From Aureibaculum sp. 2308TA14-22 (lineage in GTDB: Bacteria; Bacteroidota; Bacteroidia; Flavobacteriales; Flavobacteriaceae): DNA of 64,000 nt. Positions 14,757-20,656 of this stretch are shown here, piece after piece. The translations under genes were made by a program, and so were the position numbers. The stretch is from NCBI RefSeq assembly GCF_040538665.1, contig NZ_JBEWXT010000001.1, positions 2,196,501 to 2,260,500 on the forward strand, read 5' to 3'. Every line of letters starts with the position of its first letter. Within the stretch, counting starts at the first letter, position 1. Below the pieces are notes generated by a model. The model saw only the letters and a program-made list of their open reading frames with translations, had not been told where the DNA came from and did no database searches.

Positions 14757-15434
14757 TTAAATAAGTCCTTTTTCTTTGGCAATGCGAATAAGGTCTTCGT
14801 CATTTCCTTTTTTAACATCGAGTAGTTTTCTCAAATGACTTTTTTTCTTTTCAATAGAACTCAAAGACAGATTAATATATTGATCTAAATCTTTAGTTTT
14901 AATACCTTGTTCCAAATGCATTAAGATTTTAATATCATTATCGTCAAATTGATCCTTTTCTTTACGGAGATTGATATTATTCAGGTATTTAACTACAGTA
15001 TTGCTGTAAAATGGAGGGTTTCTCAAAATGGTCTTAAAACCAGAAATAAACTCAGCGGGATTGCTATCGTTTTTAATTAATAATCCGTCAGGGTTAATCT
15101 TTGTTAATATATTATGGATACTAAGGCTATCGTTATTTAAGGTTAAAATAACCACTTTCGCCTTTGAGAAGTTCTTTTTTGCATATAAAGCTAAATCTTC
15201 CCCTGATTTATAGTTCCCATCTAATGAGGGTGGTAAATTCATATCAAAATAAAAAAGATCGTATACTTTTTCGGATACGGCCTGTTTCATTTTAGTAATG
15301 GCCTCTTCACAATCAGAAGCAATGTCAATCTGTATATTAAAATCTTCAAGATCGGCATAATTAAACATACTTTTATAAGCTTCGATAATCATTGGATTAT
15401 CGTCCACTATTAATGTGTTTATTAGCTTTTTCAT
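14757..15434 (-). CDS. response regulator, NarL/LuxR-type
   Basis: A 225-residue response regulator. The receiver domain has acidic-pocket residues Asp11/Asp12, phospho-acceptor Asp64 (DLFYFDMNLPP) and the conserved Lys in GLLIKND. An unusually long loop, about 20 residues, sits after the phosphorylation site (SLDGNYKSGED). The C-terminal domain (about 160-225) is a LuxR-type helix-turn-helix with SLSSIEKKKSHLRKLL as the recognition region. It lies 47 bp downstream of a NarL-class histidine kinase gene, almost certainly its partner. Targets are unknown. Confidence 0.85.
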   Translation of the reverse strand: MKKLINTLIVDDNPMIIEAYKSMFNYADLEDFNIQIDIASDCEEAITKMKQAVSEKVYDLFYFDMNLPPSLDGNYKSGEDLALYAKKNFSKAKVVILTLNNDSLSIHNILTKINPDGLLIKNDSNPAEFISGFKTILRNPPFYSNTVVKYLNNINLRKEKDQFDDNDIKILMHLEQGIKTKDLDQYINLSLSSIEKKKSHLRKLLDVKKGNDEDLIRIAKEKGLI

Positions 15435-15481
15435 TACAGTAAAAGAGGAAAAGGGTATCTAACAAAGTTAGTAAATTATTA

Positions 15482-17548
15482 TTAGATAATAGTATATGGT
15501 ATGTTAACTACTATTGAAGTTCCTTTTTTCAGTTCAGAATTAAATGCTACGTTGCCATTTAGACGTTCCACTCTAGATTTAATATTTTTAATTCCTATTC
15601 CGTCTTTTTTGGCATTTGTATTAAAGCCTATTCCATCGTCAATTATTGTTAGGTGTATGGAATTATCGTCACTTTTTAATATAACTTTTACGTTATTTGC
15701 CTTAGCATATTTATTTATATTTTGAACTGCTTCTTGAACAATGCGGTAAATATTCATTTTTATATCTCCAGGTATTTCTTGCCAATTTGTATCAGTATCT
15801 GACAACAACTCATAATTATAGCCATTGGTTTTACTTTTTTGAATCAAAAGATCTTCAATTAGTTGTGTATAACCTACATCAGCATCAATGGCATTGGCAT
15901 GTAACTCATGCGAGACGCTTCTTATTTCGTCAATAACATTAGAAAGACCTTCAATGAATTCTTCTCTTTTTGAAACAGCGTCAGGGTTATTTTGAGGATT
16001 TAGAACCGCTAAGTTCATTTTAATTCCGTATAAATTACCCAATACTCCGTCATGCAGTTCTTCGGACATTCTTTTTTTCTCATTTCGCTTACCTTCGTCG
16101 AGTTTGTATTGTTGCGTAAGCATTAAATTATAGATTTCTTCATTGGCTTGTTGCTGTTCTTTTTCTAATTTTAACCTGATATTTTTTAGCCGCTGGTCTC
16201 TAATTATATAAATTAAAACACCTAGTAATAAAGCTATTGAACTTATAATCAGAATGCGTTTTTTTTGTTCGGTCAGCACTTCTTTTTCCTCAGCCAATGC
16301 TTCGTTTTCCTCTATAAACTCATCAGTTTCAAAACGGATACGAGCAAATTTATTTCTGATAGCTCTTTCTTCTTTTAATAATTCATCATTTAGGGCTATA
16401 TAGCGTTGTGTATATGTATCACTATTGTTTTTATCCAATTTTGATAATAATAATAATAAGGAAGCCAAAAGGTCTCTATAATTTTTTGACCGTTCTGCCA
16501 AGTCTTTAGCTTCATTTGCTAATTGTAAAGCTTTTATGGAATCATTATACGTGGCATAATATTCTGCCAAATGCAATTTATTAATGGTTTTTCCTGAAAT
16601 ATCCCCAATGCTATCTCTGAGCTGTAAAGATTCATGAAATAATTCACTTATGCCTATAGTATCCTTTAATTTAAACTTACTATAAGCTAAATTGTCCAAC
16701 AACATGGCGTATAGCTCAGTATTCTTTTCTTTTAAGCTATCTGTTTTTAGGGCTTGTATATAATTGTTTATAGCTTTATCATGTTGATTGTTATTTTTAT
16801 AAACTACACCTATATTATTTAAGGTATTGGGTTTGAAAGTATTTTTGATTGTTATTTTGGCTTCATATTCTAATGCTTTGTTATGATAAAATAATGCTTT
16901 ATCATATTCTTGTAGCTCATTAAATACAATACCCAAGTTGTTATAACATTTATATAACTGTCTGTTTTTCTCCAAGGGCTTTAATAATTCAATGGCTTTT
17001 ATAGCTGTCACTTCGCTACCTGTATAATCTCTAAGATCAGATTGAATAATGGCCATGTTCATTAGCATTCTACCAGAACGATAATCATCACTTCTCTCCT
17101 TATAAACCTTATGGGCTTGATAATAATAATAGTAGGCACTGTCTTTAACATTTTCTTTATTAAAAAAATTTCCCAGATCCCAATAATTAAAGGCAAGTGT
17201 TTTTGAATCTCCTAATTTAAAAGATAATTGAGTAGATAGATTATTCACTTTTCGAAACGATAAAGAATCATTTAACCTGTAATAGTTCAAAGCTATTTCT
17301 GAAAAATAAGTATTTCTAAGTGTGTCTATACTTTCTAAAAGTGTATTTTTTAATGCTTTCTCTAAATATAATTTCCTTTTTTGGATTGAAAGTTTATTAT
17401 CACTTGAATAATTAATCCAAATATTTATACTATCCTTATTTTTTGTAGAATTATCTTGACCTAGAAAATTATCCCTAGGAAATGTAATAATTGAAAAGCC
17501 AATTAAAAATGTAATATAAAGATTTAAATATTTCAATCTATTTGACAA
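15482..17548 (-). CDS. TPR-containing sensor histidine kinase (NarL-class)
   Basis: A 688-residue membrane kinase. An N-terminal hydrophobic segment is followed by about eight TPR repeats (about 80-385, probably periplasmic), a coiled coil, one transmembrane helix (432-449), a second coiled coil, a HisKA_3-type dimerisation box EELHDGVLGNL with phospho-acceptor His499, and a GHKL ATPase domain with DDGIGF and GIGIKNIKSR. No ATG exists between the upstream in-frame stop and the membrane segment, so TTG at 17548 is the likely start. The response regulator gene lies directly downstream and a 58-residue lipoprotein gene directly upstream. The signal is unknown; TPR sensor regions usually imply protein or peptide contacts. 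Confidence 0.88.
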   Translation of the reverse strand: MSNRLKYLNLYITFLIGFSIITFPRDNFLGQDNSTKNKDSINIWINYSSDNKLSIQKRKLYLEKALKNTLLESIDTLRNTYFSEIALNYYRLNDSLSFRKVNNLSTQLSFKLGDSKTLAFNYWDLGNFFNKENVKDSAYYYYYQAHKVYKERSDDYRSGRMLMNMAIIQSDLRDYTGSEVTAIKAIELLKPLEKNRQLYKCYNNLGIVFNELQEYDKALFYHNKALEYEAKITIKNTFKPNTLNNIGVVYKNNNQHDKAINNYIQALKTDSLKEKNTELYAMLLDNLAYSKFKLKDTIGISELFHESLQLRDSIGDISGKTINKLHLAEYYATYNDSIKALQLANEAKDLAERSKNYRDLLASLLLLLSKLDKNNSDTYTQRYIALNDELLKEERAIRNKFARIRFETDEFIEENEALAEEKEVLTEQKKRILIISSIALLLGVLIYIIRDQRLKNIRLKLEKEQQQANEEIYNLMLTQQYKLDEGKRNEKKRMSEELHDGVLGNLYGIKMNLAVLNPQNNPDAVSKREEFIEGLSNVIDEIRSVSHELHANAIDADVGYTQLIEDLLIQKSKTNGYNYELLSDTDTNWQEIPGDIKMNIYRIVQEAVQNINKYAKANNVKVILKSDDNSIHLTIIDDGIGFNTNAKKDGIGIKNIKSRVERLNGNVAFNSELKKGTSIVVNIPYTII

Positions 17549-17585
17549 TTTGATTATGCTCTACAAAGCTATCCAATAAAATCAA

Positions 17586-17614
17586 AAAACCCTAAGCAAA
17601 TTACTTAAGGTTTT
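17586..17614 (-). terminator. imperfect hairpin between the small lipoprotein gene and the kinase gene
   Basis: Stem of 11 bp with one C/A mismatch (17586-17596 / 17604-17614) and a 7-nt loop, followed on the minus strand by six T. It could be a partial terminator that makes the upstream lipoprotein mRNA more abundant than the kinase mRNA. Confidence 0.45.
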
Positions 17615-17641
17615 ATTATAAATTTGAAAAAGTATCATTTT

Positions 17642-17818
17642 TTAATCATCATCCCTCTCATCAACTTCATTTCCTTGATCTCCAGTATCAGCAGAAGTTT
17701 TTACATCAAATTCTGTTTGCTCGGCTTGTGCGGCTTCATCTAATGTTGCATCTGCATCACAAGAGTAAAAAGCAACTGATAATAGTAATAGTGCAAAAAT
17801 GTTTTTTAAGTTCTTCAT
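17642..17818 (-). CDS. small acidic lipoprotein (58 residues) upstream of the sensor kinase
   Basis: ATG at 17818 encodes MKNLKNIFALLLLSVAFYSC, a signal sequence ending in a lipobox with Cys20. A 38-residue mature part follows, rich in Asp/Glu and ending EVDERDDD. I do not recognise the family. Its position, 93 bp before the TPR sensor kinase on the same strand and after the LytTR gene, suggests an envelope partner or signal of one of these regulators, which is an inference. Its size is below common gene-calling limits. The signal peptide makes it a likely real gene. Confidence 0.7.
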   Translation of the reverse strand: MKNLKNIFALLLLSVAFYSCDADATLDEAAQAEQTEFDVKTSADTGDQGNEVDERDDD

Positions 17819-18046
17819 AGTTTCTATTTTTTTAGTAGGTTATAATTAATTTTTTATTTAAGCTCGTAAATAGTGTCTTTACAAGCATTTTATTTAACTA
17901 GTTGAATTGATTTTGAAGCTTCAAATTCTGTAACAAAACTACGCTGAGACACAACCTAAAGCTAATAATTTAGCAAGGTTATAGTAGATGATAGGCAAAG
18001 AGAAGTGTATTACCCACACATGATAGTAAGTGGAAAAATTAAATTC

Positions 18047-18781
18047 TTAATTTAATGACAATAGTGCATTTTTAGAAATAGATTTTTCTAAAACAACGAC
18101 ATTTTCTTTATACGTTTTTGAAAATGGAATGGCAAAACTATTTTGCTTAATGGTGCATTTAGATTTACCAAAGTGGATTCTAGATACGTATTTTTGGTTT
18201 ACAATATAGCTATTGTGGATTCTAGTAAAATTTTCAGGTAATATACCTTCAAAAAACTTAAGTGTCTTATAAGCACTAATTGTAGTGCCATCATCCATAA
18301 AGAAATCTGTGGATGTATTGTCAGCTTTTAAAAATAGAATTTCGTCCATTTCAATAAATCGGTAGTCTTTATATGACTTTAAGCATAATTTATTGGAAGG
18401 TTGTTTAGGCTCTAATTTTAGCCTAGCTACAGATTTACGCAACTCAAAATCATTTATGGGTTTTAAAATATAATCGTAAAAATTATTTTTCATACAGTTG
18501 TACGCTTCATCTTTTGTTGCTGACAAAGCGATAATATGAGGCATATCAGTAAGGTATTTGTACAATTCGTTTACAAAACTAAAGGCATTCGTACAATTAT
18601 CTTTGCTGTAATCTACATCAATAAAAACAATATCTGGTGTATATTCTAAAATAGTATCAAGCGATTGGTTATAACATTCTGAAGCACCTACACATGCAAA
18701 ATCTACTGTATTATCAAAAAAACTCTGTATTTTTTTGATTGTCGATTTGTTATTCTCTATTATAGAATATCTATTTTGCAT
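18047..18781 (-). CDS. LytTR-family response regulator
   Basis: A 244-residue two-domain regulator. The receiver domain (about 1-120) has phospho-acceptor Asp55 in IVFIDVDYS and the conserved Lys in YILKPIN. The N-terminal acidic pair is weak (Glu9-Asn10 where DD or ED is usual), so phosphorylation may be altered. The LytTR DNA-binding domain (about 133-240) shows FIEMDEILFLKADN, TLKFFEGILPENFTRIHNSYIVN and a beta-rich end. LytTR proteins bind pairs of 9-bp direct repeats about two helical turns apart, and such repeats lie just upstream of this gene, suggesting autoregulation. No LytS-type kinase is adjacent; the nearest kinase gene is 0.5 kb downstream. Confidence 0.88.
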   Translation of the reverse strand: MQNRYSIIENNKSTIKKIQSFFDNTVDFACVGASECYNQSLDTILEYTPDIVFIDVDYSKDNCTNAFSFVNELYKYLTDMPHIIALSATKDEAYNCMKNNFYDYILKPINDFELRKSVARLKLEPKQPSNKLCLKSYKDYRFIEMDEILFLKADNTSTDFFMDDGTTISAYKTLKFFEGILPENFTRIHNSYIVNQKYVSRIHFGKSKCTIKQNSFAIPFSKTYKENVVVLEKSISKNALLSLN

Positions 18782-18801
18782 AATCCCTTAATTTAGTTGC
18801 A

Positions 18802-18809
18802 CTAAATTA
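18802..18809 (-). promoter_or_regulatory. candidate -7 element of the LytTR regulator gene
   Basis: Minus-strand TAATTTAG (one mismatch to TAnnTTTG) lies exactly 30 bp from the distal 9-bp repeat at 18840-18848. That mirrors the + strand element at 18956-18963. The implied 5' UTR is about 15 nt. Confidence 0.45.
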
Positions 18810-18839
18810 CGTAGTTAATTTATTTTTTCTTAGGTATTT

Positions 18840-18925
18840 AACCACAAAATATGCATTAAAAAACCACAAATTTTTACGGTTTAAACCGTAAAAATTTGTG
18901 GTTTTTTTTCGAAAGAATTGCGGTT
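18840..18925. promoter_or_regulatory. symmetric divergent operator: four 9-bp repeats around a 50-bp palindrome
   Basis: A perfect palindrome with 25-bp arms and no spacer covers 18858-18907, centred on 18882/18883. Reading outward on each strand, TTTGTGGTT occurs on the minus strand at 18870-18862 and 18848-18840. On the + strand it occurs at 18895-18903, with the degenerate copy ATTGCGGTT at 18917-18925. Start-to-start spacing is 22 bp on both sides. LytTR proteins bind two 9-bp direct repeats separated by roughly 10-15 bp, so this spacing fits, although the repeat is not the classical consensus. A pure terminator role is unlikely because no gene is seen to end here. Confidence 0.6.
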
Positions 18926-18955
18926 TTTTATTAAATAAAGTCCTAAGTATATCGT

Positions 18956-18963
18956 TATATTTG
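18956..18963 (+). promoter_or_regulatory. candidate -7 element of the divergent short transcript
   Basis: TATATTTG fits TAnnTTTG fully and lies exactly 30 bp beyond the distal repeat at 18917-18925. No TTTG -33 element is present, as is common for activator-dependent promoters. Transcription would begin near 18970. Confidence 0.5.
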
Positions 18964-19000
18964 TATCAGAATTGAAACAGCAAGTGTAGCTAAACACATT

Positions 19001-19147
19001 ATGTATAATTTAGCCCCAAACCCAATGATCTACTTTCCTAAATTTCCACTTATTACTAAGGAAGTAAGATTTTTTCATAGCAAGAATTTTACTATAAATC
19101 ATTGGGAAGGGCTTTTTATTACTTATTTAGAAAGAGGTGTTTTATAA
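19001..19147 (+). CDS. possible 48-residue ORF in a short regulated transcript
   Basis: ATG at 19001 opens a 48-codon frame (MYNLAPNPMIYFPKFP...) ending in TAA. It resembles nothing I know, has no signal peptide and is rich in Phe, Tyr and Ile. It follows a full -7 element by about 40 bp and precedes a hairpin at 19203-19226. A 9-bp inverted repeat (19021-19029 with 19098-19106) inside the frame would give the transcript a long-range stem, so the product may be a structured small RNA rather than a peptide. Coding status is undecided. Confidence 0.35.
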   Translation: MYNLAPNPMIYFPKFPLITKEVRFFHSKNFTINHWEGLFITYLERGVL

Positions 19148-19202
19148 TTTTTGCGAAAAATAATCACTTTAATCAATTTGTTTTAATAAGGGAGTTAATG
19201 TG

Positions 19203-19226
19203 ATAGAGGTTCGAAAGAGCCTCTAT
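19203..19226 (+). terminator. terminator-like hairpin after the short transcript
   Basis: Stem ATAGAGGTTC / GAGCCTCTAT (one G-T wobble) closed by a GAAA tetraloop and followed by TATTTT. It would end a transcript of about 255 nt begun near 18970. Confidence 0.55.
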
Positions 19227-19267
19227 TATTTTAAATCTATGAAAATCCATTGTTACTTTTAAAATTT

Positions 19268-19447
19268 ATGAAAAACAAATCATCTCAATTACTTGTAGTA
19301 GGATTGTTATTAGTACTGTTAGGAGCTGTCTTAAAAATTTTTAAAATGGAAATATACTCCAACACTATCCTAATTGTTGGTTTAGTCTTAGAAATTTTGG
19401 CTGGAGTATTGTTTTTCTACAATCGCGTAACGCCTAAAAGACGATAA
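19268..19447 (+). CDS. small two-helix membrane protein (59 residues)
   Basis: ATG at 19268 encodes MKNKSSQLLVVGLLLVLLG, then a short basic loop (KIFKMEIYSN) and a second hydrophobic helix (TILIVGLVLEILAGVLFFY) with a basic tail. The helix pair looks somewhat like the N-terminal two-TM segment of GldL-type proteins, but the gene is far too short to be gldL. It stands alone downstream of the short LytTR-linked transcript and could be reached by read-through. Function unknown. Confidence 0.6.
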   Translation: MKNKSSQLLVVGLLLVLLGAVLKIFKMEIYSNTILIVGLVLEILAGVLFFYNRVTPKRR

Positions 19448-19570
19448 ACAAGTACTTTTTTAAAAAAATATACTTATTCCATTTCGTTAATCAGATATTA
19501 ATCAAGTTATTTTTATACGTTAAACCTTTTGTTTTGAGTTATGTCTAACAATAAGTTAATATAAAACTCC

Positions 19571-20656
19571 ATGAGACATCTTTTAACTCTTCTCTTGCTC
19601 TCGATGATTACAGCTTCATGTTCTTTAAACGACAATACTATTATCGAAGAAAATAATAATGAAATTTATTTTCCACCACTATCTGGTAATGAATGGGAAG
19701 CGGTGAGCCCTTCTTCATTAAATTGGAATACAACTGAATTAGAGGAATTATACACCTATCTAGAACTGAAAAACACAAAGGGATTTATCATTTTAAAAGA
19801 TGGGAAAATTGCAGTTGAAAAGTATTTTAATGGTCATAGTCAAAACACTAGTTGGAGATGGTTCTCAGCTGTAAAAAGTTTAACGGCTACTGCAATTGGT
19901 ATTGCTCAAGATGAAGAATTTATAAATATAAACAATAGAACCTCTGACTATTTAGGAAGTAATTGGTCCATATTAACAAAAGAAAAACAAGATTTAATTA
20001 CTGTCAAAAATCACCTATCAATGACCACCGGTCTGAAAAACACTCCGAATAATATTTTAGCCTGGACATGTATAGCTCCACTATGCATGAGCTACAATTA
20101 TGATGCTGGGACTAAATGGCAGTACCATCAAGGTGCATTTTCACAATTACAGAGAATATTGAGTCTGAATACAGGAAAGAATTTTAAAGTATACATAAAA
20201 GAAAAAATACTTGACAAAACTGGTATTTCTGGAAGCTGGGAAACATTTTTAGATGTAAATATTTTTTCTAGCAGTACACGAGGAATGGCTCGTTTTGGTC
20301 TTTTGGCACTAAATAAAGGTAAATGGGAAGAAAAGATAATAGTTAGTGAAGATTATTTTAATGAAATGACAAATACTTCTCAAAACCTCAATAAAGCTTA
20401 TGGATATTTATGGTGGTTGAATGGGAAGGAGAGTTATAAAACACCACAATCAGAACAAATATATGCCGGAAAATTAATTCCAAACGCCCCAAATGATTTA
20501 TTAGCAGCTCTAGGGGCTAACGATCAAAAAATTTACGTAATCCCGAGTAAAAATATGGTTGTTATTCGTTGTGGCGAAAGTGCTGAAAATGCCGAACTGG
20601 CCACATCAAGTTTTGACAATGAACTTTGGGGCAGACTAAATTCAGTAACTAATTGA
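19571..20656 (+). CDS. serine hydrolase, beta-lactamase class C-like lipoprotein
   Basis: A 361-residue predicted lipoprotein (lipobox ITASC, Cys17). The penicillin-recognising-enzyme fold shows the nucleophile motif SAVK (Ser99, Lys102) followed by SLTATAIGIA. The second motif, normally Tyr-x-Asn, appears as Tyr185-His-Gln. GMARFGLLALNKGKW and YGYLWWLN are typical of the esterase/peptidase branch rather than true AmpC enzymes. It probably acts in the periplasm or at the surface on a peptide, ester or lactam of unknown identity. It is convergent with ftsY, 20 bp apart. Confidence 0.82.
   Translation: MRHLLTLLLLSMITASCSLNDNTIIEENNNEIYFPPLSGNEWEAVSPSSLNWNTTELEELYTYLELKNTKGFIILKDGKIAVEKYFNGHSQNTSWRWFSAVKSLTATAIGIAQDEEFININNRTSDYLGSNWSILTKEKQDLITVKNHLSMTTGLKNTPNNILAWTCIAPLCMSYNYDAGTKWQYHQGAFSQLQRILSLNTGKNFKVYIKEKILDKTGISGSWETFLDVNIFSSSTRGMARFGLLALNKGKWEEKIIVSEDYFNEMTNTSQNLNKAYGYLWWLNGKESYKTPQSEQIYAGKLIPNAPNDLLAALGANDQKIYVIPSKNMVVIRCGESAENAELATSSFDNELWGRLNSVTN

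Follow-up and report, generated by a model that had tools for sequence, protein, structure and literature searches.

We describe a divergent operator from which a LytTR response regulator would activate not only its own gene but a small structured RNA as well, a reading to which we assign a probability of about two in three. The operator lies within a 64-kb window (the whole stretch of DNA analyzed, from which all positions are counted) of the genome of Aureibaculum sp. 2308TA14-22. At the level of sequence, it consists of regularly spaced half-sites at exact distances from a predicted -7 box on either side, an arrangement kept across the genus, and its divergent side leads into a predicted RNA fold that closes with a run of U. 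In the mechanism we propose, the regulator (18047–18781, minus strand) would bind the 9-bp half-sites as pairs 22 bp apart, i.e., about two helical turns, and binding along the array would be co-operative and confined to one face of the helix. From pair centers near -58, the regulator would then activate its own gene and an RNA of ~150 nt (about 18968 to 19120), which may in turn act on other RNAs. The expected outcome would be positive feedback together with a burst of RNA, as described for AgrA at P2/P3 in the relevant part of PMC4227749 and for LytTR Regulatory Systems in that of PMC6193735.

At the center of the operator lies an exact 50-bp palindrome (18858–18907), the two 25-nt arms of which (18858–18882 and 18883–18907) are 100% complementary with no spacer, as an earlier note made from the sequence had it. 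The four repeat starts given in that note, at 18895 and 18917 on the plus strand and at 18870 and 18848 on the minus strand, in 22-bp steps, are likewise correct; the copy it called degenerate is the one at 18917, which reads ATTGCGGTT, and the other three read TTTGTGGTT. Absent from that description was an inner pair, TTTACGGTT at 18873–18881 and AACCGTAAA at 18884–18892, which brings the array to six half-sites of 9 bp; the three on each strand follow one another every 22 bp. Read on the plus strand, AACC-type half-sites begin at 18840, 18862, and 18884, and GGTT-type half-sites at 18873, 18895, and 18917. The former make up the minus-strand array on the regulator side: TTTGTGGTT at 18840–18848 (AACCACAAA on the plus strand), which occupies -39 to -31 counted from the first base of the regulator box, the same half-site 22 bp beyond it at 18862–18870, and TTTACGGTT at 18884–18892 as the third. 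The latter serve the divergent promoter, with TTTACGGTT at 18873–18881, TTTGTGGTT at 18895–18903, and ATTGCGGTT at 18917–18925 located -83 to -75, -61 to -53, and -39 to -31 from its box, respectively.

Both predicted -7 boxes, TATATTTG for the divergent RNA (18956–18963, plus strand) and TAATTTAG for the regulator gene (18802–18809, minus strand), lie 30 bp outside the outer half-sites, in agreement with the earlier note. The regulator box is further backed by comparison, as a box resembling TAATTTAG, with repeats at a fixed distance, was present in 30 of the 32 upstream regions examined. In Flavobacterium psychrophilum, the -7 box is placed at -12 to -5 in the cited section of PMC9723704, and transcription starts are therefore expected near 18968 (plus strand) and 18797 (minus strand), with the outer two repeats of each promoter centered near -58 of these predicted starts. 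The layout reported for LytTR sites in the available text of PMC4847170 is two direct or inverse repeats of 9–11 nt with 11–13 nt between them; here, we found 9-bp repeats separated by 13 bp, three per strand, upstream of a promoter and adjoining a LytTR gene.

The palindrome occurs once in its own genome (3.57 Mb) when up to 3 mismatches are allowed, and the repeat pair AACCRYAAA-N13-AACCRYAAA has three matches in the 64-kb window, all within the operator (0 in 100 shuffles); the genome scan for repeat pairs that the earlier note had proposed gave no further match for this pattern outside the operator. When the pair was combined with the box, the genome-wide search returned the operator locus only at 0 and 1 mismatches and no second copy at ≤2 mismatches, while matches at 3 mismatches were at control level (3 outside the locus vs. 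4 in the control). A further pattern search of the genome for operator copies gave 3 matches outside the locus at 3 mismatches vs. 9 in the control, and its 4 better matches were offset readings of the same array; another such search yielded no match beyond the locus. Since none of these searches yielded copies above control outside the locus, we reject a mobile repeat as the nature of the operator. And because the genome holds no other pair-plus-box site at ≤2 mismatches, the RNA may be the main output of the regulator, in a circuit closed on itself.

The short divergent transcript postulated in the earlier note corresponds, as judged from fold and alignment, to a conserved two-helix candidate small RNA (18988–19117, plus strand). 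This element opens with a leader, AGCTAAACA, at 18988–18996, near the predicted start of the divergent transcript. Helix P1 joins AGCCC (19012–19016) to GGGCT (19109–19113), directly followed by UUUU, and encloses helix P2, formed by CCCAATGAT (19021–19029) and ATCATTGGG (19098–19106). The loop of P1 is long, and P1 with its U-run (19109–19117) could end the RNA. The predicted transcript would extend from about 18968 to 19117–19120, i.e., about 150 nt. None of 200 shuffles matches the fold of the stretch 18972–19128 (z -3.3), and RNAalifold returns the same two helices as drawn by hand, P1 and P2 followed by the U-run. An automatic helix search picked a different helix for one genome (G012). 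In an alignment of 8 sequences, 6 of them distinct and one (G011) seemingly misplaced by one base, 84.5% of cells pair (4/500 shuffles as high), 5 cells are changed on both sides (4/500), and the covariation score reaches 0.171 (21/500), while structures slid along the alignment do worse on both cells paired and score. Neither the pairs with both sides changed (2/14; 197/500 shuffles as high) nor the number of pair types (6; 371/500) stands out. Covariation support for the helices is thus modest.

Within a genus set of 17 genomes (Aureibaculum and kin, its own genome included), a model of this RNA (R1) found one strong copy (E ≤ 2.2e-10) in eight, each beside the regulator gene. Because R1 was built from these same 8 RNAs, their detection follows by construction, and what the search adds is that the copy is single and absent elsewhere. 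Across 299 genomes of the family, searched with stricter filters, R1 matched 2, both of them in this genus. Carriers of the RNA include the named species A. marinum, A. flavum, and A. luteum. A search of 17000–20000 against Rfam 15 gave 4 matches at E ≤ 1, all on the palindrome and none at gathering score, with no match at this threshold on 18988–19117. The same stretch overlaps a 48-aa ORF (19001–19147), which we do not consider coding because the matching frames end at 31, 22, 22, and 22 aa in four relatives (L021–L024) and its start was not found in three others (L025, L029, and L035). Farther along, 19268–19447 encodes a small protein resembling the N-terminus of GldL, under cut-offs, and the matching frame in A. 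marinum (L021) contains an early stop.

In seven other genomes of the genus, the place of the RNA is taken by a gene for a predicted secreted protein of 308–320 aa with a signal-like N-terminus (by eye). This gene is complete in six of them and apparently split over two contigs in G014; the one protein tested had no Pfam family. No such gene was found at E ≤ 1e-5 in the 8 RNA-type genomes, one of which (G015) is only 71% complete, and G009 has neither the RNA nor the protein gene. Searching 42 kb with R1 gave weak matches right at the stop codon in only three of these genomes, all close kin, G004 (E 0.0038), G005 (0.0066), and G002 (0.32), and one further match at E 3.7. A two-helix descriptor, written after the structures had been seen, scored 29.5–34 after the stop codon in 6/7 protein-type genomes, with 0/100 shuffles as high in each case, and failed in the remaining one (L030; 54/100 shuffles as good). 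As controls, 1/56 other ORF ends in the window reached 29.5 and none 31.5, and among 400 random stretches 4 reached 29.5 and 1 reached 31.5; the score of G006 (29.5) equals that of the best control gene end. Folding of the 3' structures gave z values of -2.6 to -4.5, apart from G014 (-1.94; 6/200 shuffles as good) and L072, for which the stretch folded was too short to span the element, so that its value (-0.85) is uninformative. The loop of the G014 element, GUUUCUUAU, resembles GUUUCUCUUAU of G011 and G015. No pair counts were drawn from the alignments that include protein-type rows (A3 and A4), which misplace P1 in some of these rows, and another alignment (A2), which had 15 rows instead of 11, was discarded because it contained reverse-strand and stray matches.

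The leader GCTAAACA follows the box by 31–36 nt in 8/8 RNA-type genomes, and leader-like matches (≤2 mismatches over 10 bases) lie 16–39 nt after the box in 6/7 protein-type genomes, the exception being L026. On the tree of the regulator, the 8 RNA-type rows fall on one side of a branch with moderate support (93/87), and the protein-type L026 (G014) neighbors them (93/98); with this placement, the RNA-only state is best read as derived. On these comparisons, the RNA was probably once the 3' end of a longer secreted-protein mRNA, which relatives still have at this place, and, given its derived position on the regulator tree, it may have become a stand-alone RNA through loss of the preceding ORF. 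G001 has a second leader copy before the 3' structure, and the ORF could thus have been lost by deletion between repeats. A broader scenario, which we put forward tentatively and on which our judgment is evenly balanced, is that Bacteroidota arrived at an agr-like logic independently: a LytTR regulator without a partner (an orphan) would have driven itself and a divergent secreted-protein mRNA ending in a structured 3' RNA, and the Aureibaculum branch would have lost the ORF and kept the RNA, which alone stayed behind the old promoter and leader.

The same history lends itself to a less probable but still serious alternative, in which 18988–19117 is a remnant of a lost gene, consisting of its leader and terminator, that is perhaps still transcribed but without effect. 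The similar two-helix structure behind the stop codon of protein-type relatives would be expected under this alternative, and a target search with the loop complement (14 nt, 1 mismatch) stayed at control level, with 8 sites vs. 5 and no excess of note (two of the 8 are exact, and one of these is the RNA itself). However, fold, leader, U-run, and pyrimidine-rich loop are kept in 8/8 RNA-type genomes, which is beyond what would be expected of an idle relic; the regulators of these genomes are 55–84% identical to that of the window.

The regulator itself (244 aa) combines a receiver with a LytTR domain (Pfam Response_reg, 1.5e-07, and LytTR, 3.4e-14). Its nearest NCBIfam model is BtsR (2.1e-16), at 60 bits vs. 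a cut-off of 246; YehT and BtsR are one protein. A search of solved structures returned two receiver-domain matches only. Orthologues were detected at E ≤ 1e-40 in 16/17 genus genomes, all except G003 (68% complete), and in 4/43 others, and the RIHNS motif (187–191) is invariant in 16/16 genus orthologues. The likely phospho-acceptor Asp of the receiver, which we place in FIDVD by analogy with AgrA, is replaced by Asn in 8/16 genus orthologues, which suggests phosphorylation-independent control in these proteins. The motif FTRIHNS, which includes RIHNS, corresponds to FFRCHNS of AgrA, as given in the cited part of PMC4227749. No LytS-type kinase gene was seen among the neighboring ORFs examined. 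Next on the same strand, ~230 nt past the regulator gene, is an acidic, lipoprotein-like ORF of 58 aa (by eye; 17642–17818) with no Pfam or NCBIfam match, and genes for a TPR/HisKA_3 histidine kinase and a receiver-like protein (14757–17548), also on this strand, represent a different two-component pair. One genome of the genus, G011, has a second LytTR regulator gene (L040), 39% identical to that of the window.

Sequence alone does not give the sign of regulation, and many divergent operators located next to a regulator gene serve repression. The same protein might thus occupy the same operator as an autorepressor, blocking both promoters until a signal frees them, which we regard as unlikely: the pairs center near -58, clear of the box, as do those of AgrA at P2/P3 in the section cited (PMC4227749), and in LytTR Regulatory Systems, as portrayed in the available part of PMC6193735, the repeats sit just upstream of the promoter and mediate positive feedback. 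By these analogies, activation would be the expected outcome here as well.

The alignment of related species that the earlier note had suggested shows that repeats and exact -7 box distances are kept in the genus. Among 16 orthologous regions, the distance on the divergent strand from the end of TTRYGGTT (≤2 mismatches) to a TANNTTT box is exactly 30 nt in 13 and 52 nt in 12, compared with a median over distances of 0 and a best of 5/16 among 200 shuffled sets. The three misses at 30 nt are L025 and L030, where the sites have 3 mismatches, and L026, the box of which (TAATTTAC) falls outside the pattern. On the regulator strand, the narrow TANNTTT box gave at most 4/16 at any distance, a weak result because most regions have TAATTTAG as the regulator box. 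When the box was widened, after that result, to TANTTT or TANNTTT, AACCRYAA stood at gap 21 in 11/16 regions, all outside the window clade (shuffles ≤5), and also at gap 22 in 8/16, while TTRYGGTT stood at gap 30 in 10/16, the window clade among them (shuffles ≤6). The regulator-side register differs, at -61/-39 in the window clade vs. -51/-29, centered near -48, in the rest of the genus, so that each promoter appears to have its own array in the window clade. At family level, a 22-bp direct repeat ranks 1st at box position -53 and 5th at -51 out of 2694 position-spacing pairs. This ranking used the 14 of 16 rows with a recognizable box (L018 and L039 left out; L010–L012 are near-copies). Of 18 loci found, L002–L006 are identical to the regions L021, L022, L023, L032, and L035 and were counted once, and the weak L019 was not used. 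L030 has AAGTGTAA/AAGTGTAC as its repeats where AACCGYAA would be expected, at unchanged spacing to both boxes; V199I is the sole unique residue at conserved columns of its LytTR domain, with no clear change matching the altered repeats.

This conservation also bears on whether the palindrome is instead bound by another, dimeric regulator, which we consider improbable. As an inverted repeat, TTTACGGTTTAAACCGTAAA is indeed a good one, and many relatives, too, have a half-site in inverted orientation at -39. The common feature, however, is the 22-bp direct repeat (21 bp in L029 and L035), i.e., the LytTR layout published in PMC4847170, at least in the part cited. The arrays of L029 and L035 are direct, with a period of 21, and lack the palindrome (by eye), which indicates that the conserved unit is the repeat rather than the palindrome, and a near-perfect palindrome is seen in five of the eight RNA-type genomes. 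In addition, LytTR orthologues with about 40–49% identity also come with repeats in this register, and the nearest other regulator gene in the window (14757–15434) is about 2.6 kb away. Finally, it is very improbable that the palindrome serves to terminate transcription in both directions or is a hairpin element that is itself transcribed. As RNA, 18840–18930 has a folding energy of -34.2 kcal/mol, and no site in 18600–19600 other than the palindrome is terminator-like, but the regulator gene and the RNA are both directed outward from it, both predicted starts lie outside and downstream of it, and two relatives keep the repeats without it.

Where the palindrome is kept, its arms seem to change together. 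A comparison of the window with L021–L024 shows three differences (at 11, 12, and 16) among the inner 19 arm positions, each change being mirrored by the same base in the opposite arm, with one of them in the 2-bp linker and none unmirrored; changes farther out, up to position 25, are partly mirrored and partly not. These changes are partly common by descent and perhaps reflect just three paired events. Hairpin-templated repair, leading to concerted change, or selection for equal promoters may explain the mirrored arms.

LytTR regulators are present in many Bacteroidota, and a search of the open-licence literature by title found no report of one driving a divergent small RNA in this phylum, nor, among open-licence Aureibaculum papers, any title on regulation. 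If the circuit formed by the LytTR regulator and the RNA is indeed closed on itself, one knockout could reveal its function. The series from a protein with a 3' RNA to the RNA alone would open the descent of a small RNA from an mRNA to direct test. If true, the agr-like scenario would amount to the traced birth of a small RNA along with the change of an operator to a near-perfect palindrome, the arms of which evolve in concert.

The earlier note had raised the possibility of a new recognition sequence, which is not indicated: on the opposite strand, the site becomes AACCRYAAA and resembles the YehT repeats in PMC4847170, the available text of which describes a common layout but no common consensus for LytTR sites. 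The E. coli YehT test DNA (yjiY) carries ACCGCTTA-N13-ACCACTCA in that source, so that the two systems share similar half-sites and 13 bp between them, with BtsR being the nearest NCBIfam model of the regulator, while the period is 21 there and 22 here and no divergent layout is described in the cited part. The small RNAs of F. psychrophilum such as Rfp18 resemble the present one in being independent small RNAs of the same bacterial family with TAnnTTTG-kind promoters, according to the relevant section of PMC9723704; LytTR is absent from the text of that paper, and the likeness meant here is one of description. We dropped PMC6222199, as the part cited concerns an OmpR-type regulator. The LytTR Regulatory Systems (HdrRM and BrsRM), in the excerpt cited (PMC6193735), have 9-bp direct repeats just upstream of their own promoter, positive feedback, and a regulator and a membrane inhibitor in one operon. 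The 9-bp direct repeats just upstream of the regulator's promoter are shared, whereas the regulator here includes a receiver domain, and none of the ORFs examined after its gene encodes a membrane protein.

A close parallel is with the agr system of S. aureus, in which RNAIII is the structured RNA and agrBDCA holds peptide, exporter, and kinase genes with the regulator. Here, genes of this kind do not adjoin the operator, the next ORFs on the strand being the family-less 58-aa ORF and the TPR/HisKA_3 kinase with the receiver-like protein, and for lack of agrBDCA-like genes we do not class the system as a member of agr. It also differs in that its operator is a perfect palindrome, each strand having three half-sites, and in that the RNA structure of relatives sits behind a secreted-protein ORF; we claim no homology of the RNA or of the gene set. 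What the two systems share is a regulator of the LytTR type, divergent promoters that each have a pair of direct repeats just upstream, with pair centers near -60 of both P2 and P3 for AgrA in the cited part of PMC4227749 and at about -58 of the predicted starts here, and an operator that faces the regulator on one side and a structured RNA on the other.
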